In this document: piece by piece, positions 34,469 through 42,144 of the stretch
Position numbering within the stretch: position 1 is the first letter of the stretch
Layout: the number at the start of each line of letters is the position of its first letter
Assembly: GCA_021234155.1 (NCBI GenBank)
Contig: JAJEKV010000035.1
Span: 434,001 to 498,000 of the forward strand
Direction of reading: 5' to 3'
Length of the DNA: 64,000 nt
Source: Isoetes taiwanensis
Taxonomy: Eukaryota > Streptophyta > Lycopodiopsida > Isoetales > Isoetaceae
The notes under the pieces: model-generated
What the model saw: only the letters and a program-made list of their open reading frames with translations
What the model was told of the DNA's origin: nothing
Databases searched by the model: none
Program-made: the position numbers and the translations under genes

Positions 34469-36650
34469 TCTTATATTATAAAGTTATAGCGTAAGTATGT
34501 CATGAAGCAAACCCTAATTTGTATGGCTTAGATCATTTGATTGCATTCATAGGCCGTGATTTATTGCACAACTTCCCACCACTGCGATTGGCCATGCTTT
34601 GATCTTTTAAGAGGAAAGGGTAAAGGAAAAGGGAGGAGGAAAGGGGAAAACTGAAGGGCAAAAAGACATGGACAAAAGGGAAAGAGGGAAAGGAGAAAAG
34701 GGCAGGGGAAAAGGGAAAGAGAAAGAAAAAAAAAGAAAGGGAGAAAGGAAAAAAAAAAAGGACAAAAGAAAAGGGAAAGAGGGGAAATGGAAGGGAAAAG
34801 TGAAAAAGAAAAAGGGAAGGGTGGAAAAGGGCATGGGAAAAGAGAAAGGAAAAAGGCCTTTCTTGGGAATGGAAAAAGAGGTATGGGAAAAGGGAAAGGG
34901 TAAGGGGGAAGGGGAAAAAAGAAGGGAAAAGGACAAAGAGGAGAAGGAAAAGAGAAAAGGGAAGGAAGAAGGGAAGAGCGAAAAAAGAAAAAGGAGGGGG
35001 AAAGGGAAGAGGAAAAAAAGAAGGAAGAGGAAAAGGGTATTGAAAGGGAAAAAGGAAAAGCATGGGAAAAAGAAAGGAAAAAAGTAACATATGAGGAAAC
35101 CGAAAAGGGCAAGGGAAGAGGGAAAGGGAAAAAGGGGAAGAGGAAAAAGGTGAGGAAAGGGGAAAACGAAACACGAAAAAAAAAGGGGAAGAGGAAAATG
35201 ATGGGGAAATGGGAAAGTAAAAAGGAAATGGGAATGGGATAAAGGAAAGAGAAAGGGAAAAGAAAAAGATAGGAAAGGGGAAAAGGGCACATGGAAGGGA
35301 AAGAAAAAAAAAAGGAGGAACGAGAAAAAAACAGTTGAAAAGGAAAGGGGAAAAGGCATGGGAAAAGAGAAAAGGGAAAGGGTAAGGAAAAGGAAAGCGG
35401 AATCGAAAAGGAAATGAGAGGATAAAAGGAAAGAAAAAAAAAGGAAGGGGAAGAGGAAAAAGGAGGAAAAGGGAAGGAAAATGGAGATGCCTCCAAAAGG
35501 GGAAGTAGGAAAGGGTGGGGGAAAAGAAAGGCATGGGAAAAGGAAAAAGGGGAAAGGAAAAAGAGAAGGAAAGGGAGAATGTGAAGGGCAAAAAAAACAG
35601 AGGAAAGGAAAAAAAAAAAAAGAGAATGCAAAAAGGGAAGAAAAAAGGCATGGGAAAAAGGGAAAAGGGAAAAGGAAAAAGGGAAGGAATAAATGGCCTG
35701 GGAAAGGGAGTAGAAAACGAAAGGTAAAAATGAAGGAAAAAATGGCACCATCAAAAGGGGAAGAGGGAAAGGGTGGGAAAAAGAGGAAAAGGGAAGGGAA
35801 AAAGGGGAACTGAAATGGAATAGAAAAAATGAAAAAAAAAAAGGGGAGGGGGGAAAGTGGAAAAAGAACCCGAAAAAAAAGCGTGAAAGAGAGGAAAATG
35901 GGAAGAGGGATAGGGGAAAAGGGAGGGGGGAAAGGGCACGAGAAAAGGGGAAGAGGAAAGGGTGAACAAAGAGTAAAAGGGAAGCGAAAAGAGCATGCAA
36001 ATGGAAGGGAAAAAAGGCATGGAAAAAAGGGGACGAGGGAAAGAAAGAGCAAGAAAATTAGAAAAGAGAAGGAAAGAATGTCATGGGAAAAGGGAAAGGG
36101 AAAAGAAAAAATAGAGAGAGGGGAAAAGGGGAAGGAAAGGGTGGGGAAAGGAGGAAAATGGAAGGGAAAAAAGGGAACGAAAAAAAGGTGGGGAAAAGAG
36201 GAATAGCGAAATGGGAAAAGAGAAGGGGAAAAGGCACAAAAAAAGGGCGAAAGAAAGGGGAAAAAAGAAGCCAAGAAGAGCATGGAAAAAGGGAAAAAGA
36301 AAAGAAAAAGAGAGAAAGGGTGGGGAAAAGAGGAAAAAAAAAGGAAAGAATCCACCAGGAAAAGGTTTGGGACGAAGGAAAAGGGGGAAACAAGGATGTG
36401 AAAAAAAAAAGAAGAAAAGAAAGAAAGAAAGAAAGGAAGCATGCAAGGAAAATGAAAAAAAAAAAGGAAAAGGAAAAAGGGAAGTGTGAAAACGAGGAAA
36501 AGGAAAAAGAAAAGAGTAAAAGCGGTGTAAAGAATGGTATCGAATGTGTTAACAATGGAGTACTTTCGGGTTATTCTCTCATTGCTATTGTGTATCATTT
36601 ATAGGGTCTCAGTCAACTTATGCCCAGCAACGCTGGGCACCGTTACTAGT
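34469..36650 (+). mobile_element. Helitron-like element with polypurine interior (first)
   Basis: It begins TCTTATATTATAAAGTTATA after an A and ends with hairpin GCCCAGCAACGCTGGGC (36,622-36,638), then ACCGTTA and CTAGT. About 140 bases at the left and 110 at the right are normal sequence shared with the next two elements. The left block includes CCCACCACTGCGATTGGCCA. Everything between is a near-pure purine tract. No Rep/helicase is present, so it is non-autonomous. The next element starts at its last base. Confidence 0.85.
34610..36520 (+). repeat. Kilobase polypurine tract, degenerate about 60-bp minisatellite
   Basis: Plus strand is almost only A and G for about 1.9 kb. Pyrimidines appear mainly in a recurring GGCATGGGAAAA or GGCACG word and in AGGGTGRGGAAA. 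These words suggest a degenerate unit near 60 bases: GGCATGGGAAAAGGGG, AAGAGGGAAAGGGTG, GGAAAAGGGAAGGGAAAAA. Long minus-strand open frames here exist only because a pyrimidine strand can make no stop codon. Confidence 0.85.
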
Positions 36651-40466: not shown

Positions 40467-42144
40467 TCTTATATTATAATGTTTTAGCGTGTTGTATCAA
40501 GCCCTAATTTGAATGGTTGGGATTATTTGAGTGCATCCAAAGGCCAAGATTTAATGCATAGCTTCCCACCACCGTGAATGGTCAAGCTTTAGTCTCTTAT
40601 GGGGAAAGGGAAAAAGAAAAGGAGGAAAAGGAAAAGGAAAAGGAAAAGGAAAAGGAAAAGGAAAAGGAAAAGGAAAAAGGAAAAGGAAAAGGAAAAAGGA
40701 AAAGGAAAAGGAAAAGGAAAAGGAAAAGGAAAAGGAAGAAGGAAGAAGGAAAGGGAAATGTGAAGGGCAAGGAGAAAAGGGAGAAAAGAGAAAGGGGAAA
40801 ATGGAAGGAAAAAAGGGCATGGGAAAAGCGAATCAGGGAAAGGGTGAGGAAAGGTAAAAAGGAAGGGAAAAACGACATGAGAAAAGGGAATAGAAATGAG
40901 AAATGAAAAAAAGAGGGGGGGGAAGGAAAAAGGCCATGGGAAAAGGCTTAAGAGGGAAAAGGTGGGGAAAGGAAGAAAAGAGAAGGGAAGAAGGGAAAAA
41001 AAAGGGTGGAGAAGCGAAAAAGGGCATGGGGAAAGGAAAAGAAAAAAGAAAACGGAATGAGAAAAGGGGAAAAGGGAACTTGGGAAAAAAGGCATGAGAA
41101 AAAGGGGAAGAGAGAAATGGGAAAAGGGAAAGGGGAAACGGCACATGAAAAGGGGGAAGACGAAAAGGAAAGAAAGCAAAAAAAAAGCATGAGAAAAAGG
41201 AGGGAAAAAAGGACATGGTAAAAAGAAGAAGAAGGAAAGGGTAACGAAAGGGGAAAAGAGAAGGAAAAAATGATATGGAAAACAAAAAAGGGAAAAAGAA
41301 AAGAAAAAGGGAGGGGAAATGAGCACTGGAAAAGGGGAAGAGAAAAGGATGGAGAGAGGAGAAAAAATGAAGGGAAGAAGGGGGACACGGAATTGGAAAG
41401 AATGAGGAGGAAGGAAGGAAAAAAGGGGAACAAGAAAGGACGGAGAGAAGGGAATGGAAAAGTGGCATGGGAAAAGAGAAAGGGGGAGGGGAGAAGGGTG
41501 AAATGGAATCTAAGAAAAAGGGGACAAGGAAAAGGAAAGAAAGAAACGAAAAAATGGAAGAGGGAAAGAGCACGAGGAAGAGGGAATCGGAAAAAGGGAA
41601 GGGGAAATGGCACGGAGAAAAGGAGAGGGGAAAACGGTAAAGAAAGGGGAAAAGGGAAACGGAAAAGAGAATGGGAAAAGGGAAAAAAAGAAGGGGGAAC
41701 GGGGAAAGGGTGCGGAAAAGAGGAAAGGGGGTACATGGAAAAAAGGAAGAGGAAGAATGTGTTGAAAAGGGCATGGGAAAGGGAAAAGTCAAAAGGAAAT
41801 GAAGGGAGAAGTGGGGGGGAGAAAGGGAAAAAGAACACGCCAAAATAGAAAGAGGAAAAGGGTCGGGAAAGGAGGGAAAAGGGAAAGGAAAAAAGTTCAT
41901 CAGAAAAAGGAAATAAAGAAAAACAAGAAAAAGATAGAAAAGGAAAATAGGAAAAAGAAGGAAAAGGAAGAAGAAAAAAGGGTGAAAGTGGGGTAGAGCA
42001 AATGGCAGAAGAAAATAGAAATGGTGTAGATTACTTTAACAATGGAGTACTTTTGGGTTATTCATGCTCTCTTCTCTCATTACTATAATGTATCATTTAC
42101 GGGTTCTCAGCTTATGCCTAGCAACACTGGGCATCGTTCCTAGT
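40467..42144 (+). mobile_element. Helitron-like element with polypurine interior (third)
   Basis: It begins TCTTATATTATAATGTTTTA after an A, shares the 5' block (TTCCCACCACCGTGAATGG) with the other two, and ends with a GCCTAGCAACACTGGGC hairpin and CTAGT (42,140-42,144). The next base is C, not T. The 3' block (AACAATGGAGTACTTT and TGTATCATTTA) is shared with the first element. No transposition protein is encoded. Confidence 0.85.
40605..41995 (+). repeat. Polypurine tract of the third element with (GGAAAA)n start
   Basis: 40,620-40,735 is a nearly perfect GGAAAA/AAGGAA hexanucleotide array. The rest is the same degenerate A/G minisatellite as in the other two elements. Reverse-strand frames are artefacts. 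Confidence 0.88.

Follow-up and report, generated by a model that had tools for sequence, protein, structure and literature searches.

The 64,000-nucleotide stretch of Isoetes taiwanensis DNA analyzed here (contig JAJEKV010000035.1, positions 434,001 to 498,000, forward strand; hereafter the window) contains three non-autonomous Helitrons, E1, E2, and E3, whose bodies are purine tracts of 1.4-1.9 kb. We consider it likely that the tract goes back to a purine repeat that an ancestral Helitron carried long ago, was amplified by rolling-circle transposition, and has been decaying neutrally. In all three elements the purines lie on the strand that runs 5' to 3' in the element, and the score threshold that these tracts passed was reached by no further purine or pyrimidine segment in the 64 kb window. 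The A+G content of the window tract segments is 90.7-94.4%, and the tract bodies are about 91% purine, so that the description "nearly pure A/G" in an earlier note on this DNA was too strong. The features of the elements are as follows; copies elsewhere in the genome carry L numbers.

34469..36649, + strand: E1, a complete non-autonomous Helitron (TC...CTAG) inserted after A34468 (end reading; copies elsewhere)
34609..36522, + strand: E1 purine tract, 1,914 bp, with a brief break at 34857-34864, reported by the purine segment scan as two segments, 34609-34856 and 34865-36522 (purine segment scan; its copies)
36622..36649, + strand: E1 3' terminator, palindrome GCCCAGC-AAC-GCTGGGC plus 11 nt ending in CTAG (end reading, pattern search)
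36650..38488, + strand: E2, a non-autonomous Helitron of a different subfamily from E1, abutting E1 head to tail (CTAG/TC)
36787..38340, + strand: E2 purine tract, 1,554 bp (purine segment scan)
38367..38383, + strand: imperfect second palindrome resembling a terminator, about 105 bp upstream of the true E2 3' end (sequence reading)
40467..42143, + strand: E3, a non-autonomous Helitron of a third subfamily, between A40466 and T42144
40601..42021, + strand: E3 purine tract, 1,421 bp (purine segment scan)
40602..40758, + strand: 5' edge of the E3 tract, a young, partly interrupted (GGAAAA)n array that differs among related copies
Window 36632; L003:2359; L011:183; L032:833; L066:83: head-to-tail joins (match starts; L copies in element-strand numbering)

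Ends and target sites of the elements

The three elements have the ordinary Helitron ends that the earlier note described: 5' TC, a palindrome 11 nt before CTRR (here CTAG), and, judging by the bases flanking the copies, insertion mostly between A and T. Non-autonomous plant Helitrons of this canonical form are called Basho-type. The bases at the element edges are A/TC in E1 and E3, T follows the CTAG of E2 and E3, and the 3' palindrome is perfect in E1 and decayed by one or two bases in E2 and E3. Genome-wide searches, which covered 1,658,258,908 bases in 1,110 contigs, gave 6,367 matches to the 3' pattern (palindrome plus CTAG) at ≤2 mismatches, versus 0 for the same pattern written backwards. 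The same genome has 91 NAC-domain matches, which mark it as that of a plant.

The 5' TC of E1, E2, and E3 is also present in 30 of 32 E1-type copies. The base before it is A in 24, T in four, and G in two, both of them head-to-tail joins; the remaining two lack the TC. T follows the 3' end in all 19 E1-type copies in which that end was found, one of which (L066) ends in CTAT. These A and T flanking bases match the A-T target described for canonical Helitrons in PMC4067079. The T-rich target of Helentrons and HINE elements was not seen, the ends being TC and CTAG and the target mostly A^T; subterminal inverted repeats were not searched for.

The five direct head-to-tail joins listed above have zero bases between CTAG and TC, and are unexplained by ordinary A-T insertion. 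L047-type copies have a second terminator-like palindrome similar to that of E2, some 100 bp short of their actual 3' end. The window holds additional Helitron-like end motifs belonging to this clade at 43258-43284 (+), 56321-56347 (-), 6898-6924 (-), and 60127-60150 (-), with no purine tract nearby.

Linkage of the purine tract to Helitron ends

The tract starts 134-138 bases from the 5' end in all 32 E1-type flanks sampled; these are the ones retrieved, E1 itself excluded, among 40 scored of 1,245 rough candidates, a set biased to close relatives of E1. It reaches at least 1.4 kb in 25 of the 32 loci, and in 18 of those 25 it measures 1,855-1,964 bp; among the seven others, L019 was retrieved as 1,001 bp only. 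E3-type flanks likewise lead into a tract (10 of 10), as do L047-type flanks (10 of 10, nine of them >80% purine over about 300 nt, with L077 shortened). A 5' subterminal word common to the subfamilies had 1,517 matches genome-wide, versus 0 for its backwards control. Twenty of the 100 exact matches listed were sampled: 15 pass 80% purine over about 380 bases and 19 start with a purine run by eye; L093 does not, and in L106, L107, L109, and L112 the run is interrupted.

The linkage also holds when read outward from the tract. A 21-base tract word had 2,464 matches, versus 218 for its backwards control, and among 16 places sampled from its 59 exact matches blastn found a Helitron flank at 14 and both flanks at 10. 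The flank library for this test held one L047-derived 5' flank (L073), but loci resembling L047 had matches to flanks of L022 or L028 as well. The earlier note's proposed tie between these ends and purine tracts thus extends beyond the window. Its question of whether the orientation is always the same is answered for the sampled tract-bearing copies, where orientation was constant, with none of the 16 tract-word places reversed. This constancy follows from descent and is therefore not independent evidence of function.

Sampling by exact 3' end gave a different picture. Among 20 of the 100 exact matches listed, a sample that necessarily misses most E1-type ends (TTCCTAG, with one mismatch), two had a tract and 18 had none in the upstream stretch retrieved (960 bp only for L032). 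Because just two of these 20 ends had a tract, the purine lineage looks like a minority inside a larger Helitron clade.

That the tracts are artefacts of long-read assembly or read error is hardly credible, and this reading, which the earlier note had named as one that would overturn its own, is already nearly refuted. The genome was assembled from Nanopore reads with short-read polishing (according to PMC8566536), and small tract indels may be read errors. Against an artefact stand the 25 E1-type loci at separate places with tracts of at least 1.4 kb, most of them within the narrow length range given above, the interruptions common to 15 aligned copies, and the 20 aligned loci that share one body.

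In L041, L056, and L109 (perhaps also L106), a (TAGAA)n-like run interrupts or terminates the tract and leads into sequence like ACGTCCACGGAGACC, which is apparently another shared repeat.

Inheritance, decay, and structure of the tract

Over the whole element, identity in ungapped columns is 88-99% among the 12 E1-type copies that were cut at both ends; E1 itself is 88-94% identical to 11 such copies elsewhere. Five copies without an exact 3' cut (L008, L011, L012, L013, L016) are 77-93% identical to the 12. Fifteen aligned E1-type copies have 160 columns with a majority pyrimidine, 150 of which are retained by at least 80% of copies; substitutions were counted in 12 of the 15. In a 20-copy alignment (E1 plus the 19 of the 32 retrieved copies in which the 3' end was found, excluding changes within ≤4 columns of a gap), the tract is 1,885-1,966 bp long in 16 copies and 1,089, 1,524, 1,555, and 1,855 bp long in the others. 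Within the E1 type the tracts are inherited body sequence, not regrown in each copy. The earlier note's suggestion that the tract expands inside the transposon therefore fails for these collinear copies with their shared interruptions.

Between subfamilies, tract similarity was compared with 10 simulations per pair. Some pairs stand well above simulation (Z-scores of 32.6 for L047-L054, 16.8 for L022-L047, and 11.6 for E2-L047), and across subfamilies tract similarity drops broadly with flank similarity, with E3-L050 and L009-L056 as exceptions. The subfamily tracts probably have one origin and have turned over rapidly since. Some subfamilies may instead have regrown their tracts separately, because the similarity of distant tracts is near that of simulations and does not strictly follow the flanks.

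A general version of regrowth, in which the purine tract grew separately in each subfamily or copy by repeat expansion inside the Helitron, is very unlikely. It would fit the 5'-edge (GGAAAA)n array of E3-type tracts, which ranges from 1 to 15 uninterrupted units across 11 copies (counts that long-read errors could alter), and the near-chance similarity of tracts of distant subfamilies, some pairs of which fall below the expectation from their flanks. It does not fit the collinearity and common interruptions of E1-type tracts, nor a purine/pyrimidine difference between tracts that in most pairs is well under the chance level and near the flank rate.

That difference also bears on whether the purines are maintained. 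Of 19 pairs of copies, 14 had a purine/pyrimidine difference in the tract that matched or exceeded the transversion rate of the flanks, and five had a lower one. Tract and flank values were about equal for E2-L047 (0.066 versus 0.067), L022-L047 (0.062 versus 0.064), and E2-L022 (0.084 versus 0.085), and the tract value was higher for L047-L054 (0.040 versus 0.017), L009-L056 (0.077 versus 0.037), and L047-L053 (0.034 versus 0.027). Since purine-to-pyrimidine change broadly tracks flank transversions, there is no sign of selection keeping purines.

Two other candidates were rejected. Restoration of purines was considered because singleton pyrimidine-to-purine changes in the 20 E1-type copies seemed about five times as frequent in the tract (30 of 2,295 sites) as in the flanks (7 of 2,657). 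This excess was put down to local misalignment, as only three of the 30 singletons had no other difference within 12 columns. A coding tract was considered because antisense open reading frames extend up to 663 amino acids; the longest has no Pfam match, many indels between copies are not divisible by three, and a pyrimidine strand is poor in stop codons through its composition alone.

As to the repeat unit, the earlier note described a degenerate minisatellite of about 60 bases. With standard settings, Tandem Repeats Finder gave no period near 60 within the window tracts. The arrays are highly degenerate and were detectable only with relaxed settings, which gave a period of 12-14 in six of six tracts, each time exceeding all 12 order-3 simulations. 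On the same test a 55-65 base unit was absent from four tracts and barely exceeded the simulated maxima in two (374 versus 366; 371 versus 341), and the 60-base minisatellite was rejected in favor of a clearest period of about 13 bases. That period is outscored in L028 by one of 187 bases (602 versus 558) and in L047 by one of 5-8 bases (656 versus 611). In eight tracts examined, lags of 6, 7, and 13 were among the highest in guanine autocorrelation; these lags, with the period of about 13 bases, indicate that the old unit was probably 6-7 purines.

Of the mirror-like structure, potentially triplex-forming, that the earlier note ascribed to the purine strands, a clear excess over simulation is seen in one tract. 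E3 has a mirror arm of 52 and a coverage of 0.11 versus 0.06 simulated, owing to its GGAAAA array. The longest arms in E1, E2, and L047 are 11, 12, and 14, versus simulated maxima of 17, 16, and 14, and their coverages are 0.03, 0.02, and 0.08, versus 0.07, 0.06, and 0.04 (standard deviation (SD) 0.02), which places E1 and E2 at or below simulation and L047 about 2 SD above it in coverage. G-quadruplex motif coverage is in clear excess in E1 alone (170 versus a simulated mean of 70, SD 46), the other values being 82 versus 64 in E2, 48 versus 45 in E3, and 23 versus 45 in L047.

It is unlikely that the tract aids transposition, whether as a long hairpin-free spacer whose purine strand avoids false terminators and premature stops, or through purine RNA whose R-loops could open the element. 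Consistent with a spacer role, the purine strand over the first 600 nt of four tracts is predicted to fold, as single-stranded DNA, with only -0.35 to -1.20 kcal/mol per 100 nt, versus a mean of -10.6 (SD 1.7) for 18 other 600-nt pieces of the window; the abundance of the 5' word and the constant orientation in every sampled tract-bearing copy also agree with it. However, the pyrimidine strand is predicted to be just as unfolded, so folding cannot explain the orientation, and no selection keeping purines was seen, although five of 19 pairs change less in the tract. Furthermore, the tract is seemingly not needed for spread, because the tract-less relatives (18 of 20 by exact 3' end, in the stretch retrieved) spread too. 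We regard as decidedly unlikely the adaptive proposal that the purine body evolved for rolling-circle transposition, keeping a kilobase of the transferred strand free of hairpins and perhaps being opened by purine R-loops, and enabled the spread of the lineage in this lycophyte.

Several observations weigh against a single old tract that was copied and then decayed neutrally. Distant tract pairs lie only 0.7-5 SD above their simulations (Z-scores of 0.7 for E2-E3, 2.1 for L009-E3, 2.6 for L009-E2, 2.1-2.6 for L009-L022, and 5.0 for L009-L056), and E3-L050 (flank difference 0.135, Z 4.6) and L009-L056 (0.119, Z 5.0) fall below L022-L047, whose flanks differ more (0.163, Z 16.8). In the five pairs whose tracts change less than their flanks, the gap is largest for L009-E2 (0.061 versus 0.102) and is also seen in L009-L022 (0.077 versus 0.093); for distant pairs such as these the comparison covers just 487-860 sites in the tract and 134-239 in the flanks, and the flanks could be under constraint of their own. 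Two of the 16 tract-word places (L045, L046) have no recognizable Helitron flank, L041 and L052 differ in the sequence immediately 5' of the tract, which hints at module exchange, and four of the 32 5' ends are preceded by T, not A.

Proposed origin and comparison with known systems

Neutral decay of an inherited tract nevertheless remains the reading we prefer. E1, E2, and E3 would derive from one old non-autonomous Helitron lineage, an ancestral copy of which carried an array of 6-7 base purine units (GGGAAA or GGAAAA) that together read as a period of about 13. Slippage in the ancestor probably built the array. RepHel proteins of autonomous Helitrons that share this type of 3' terminator may have moved the element in trans, with flanks and tract copied together as one body, as the identity between whole copies shows; the word matches suggest that probably more than a thousand sites were reached. 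Transitions, small indels, and pyrimidine interruptions would later have eroded the tract as they do unconstrained DNA, whereas the short 5'-edge array appears to be still expanding in one subfamily, the E3 type. Orientation would have been fixed by inheritance and the tract would be passive cargo.

Candidate partners for movement in trans were sought through Helitron_like_N, for which 150 matches were scored of 1,813 candidates genome-wide, and four loci were examined. L069 encodes a 1,979-amino-acid open reading frame with Helitron_like_N and PIF1 domains, and has a GCCCGGCAACGCCGGGC...CTAG terminator 588 bp past the stop. At L071 a comparable terminator lies about 3.5 kb past a 1,632-amino-acid open reading frame; the palindrome preceding CTAG at L070 is a different one, and none is present at L072. 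No matching 5' end was found at the four loci in the stretches retrieved, which for L069 include only 384 bp before the open reading frame. As a further point against the proposed origin, the partnership of L069 is suggested by its 3' end alone, and its 5' end may lie beyond the stretch retrieved. None of the four loci has a kilobase tract in the 10 kb retrieved, L070 having a 155-bp purine-rich stretch.

Elsewhere in the window are a long, open Copia-type polyprotein frame (10708-14427, 1,239 amino acids) with gag, integrase, and RVT_2 domains, and a tandem array of a palindromic unit of about 41 bases (62795-62986).

A transposon that spreads a simple-sequence array as fixed cargo means that one lineage can disperse long purine DNA, as opposed to slippage at each place. 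The more than 1,500 5'-word matches, with the tract in a single orientation in the sampled bearers, offer a natural panel for testing R-loops or triplexes, replication stalling, and methylation in a plant. Were selection or transposition assays to show that the tract matters, Helitron mechanics would gain a new part.

Searches of the open-licence literature found no Helitron with a kilobase purine body, and the word "Helitron" is absent from the main texts of both Isoetes genome papers (PMC8566536, PMC10541799). To that extent the earlier note's statement that no such family had been described stands; it does not extend to repeat-carrying, orientation-fixed relatives, which are known. Oyster Cg_HINE is a genome-wide non-autonomous rolling-circle element whose central tandem array has a fixed orientation to its flanks and whose related flanks can carry unrelated repeats, as described in PMC7492417. 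Like the Isoetes elements it combines a central array, fixed orientation, and inheritance with the flanks; unlike them it is described as a member of the Helentron superfamily, with oligo-T targets and monomers of 140-180 bp on average versus the 6-13 base purine repeat here. DINE-1/HINE elements are described in PMC4067079 as abundant and non-autonomous, with a microsatellite and sometimes tandem repeats, which make up about half of the element in some HINE copies. These too are Helentrons, unlike the Isoetes elements; they have subterminal inverted repeats, their targets are TT or T-rich, and the microsatellite of DINE-1 is reported to be short. The ISX Helitron of Drosophila miranda spreads a GA-rich motif (PMC6417741) and so resembles the Isoetes elements in dispersing GA-rich sequence, but this motif is, in that account, 21 bp long, binds protein, and was domesticated for dosage compensation, in contrast to a kilobase tract.

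Among canonical plant Helitrons, the Isoetes elements share the 5' TC, the palindrome 11 nt before CTRR (CTAG), mostly A/T insertion, and the lack of a recognized protein domain, and RepHel elements with the same style of terminator are present in this genome. They differ in the body, which consists of 1.2-2 kb of purine tract where other such elements have captured or unique sequence. The kilobase purine body is thus unusual in form for a canonical plant Helitron, while the element is not new in kind, because repeat-carrying Helitron relatives have already been described.

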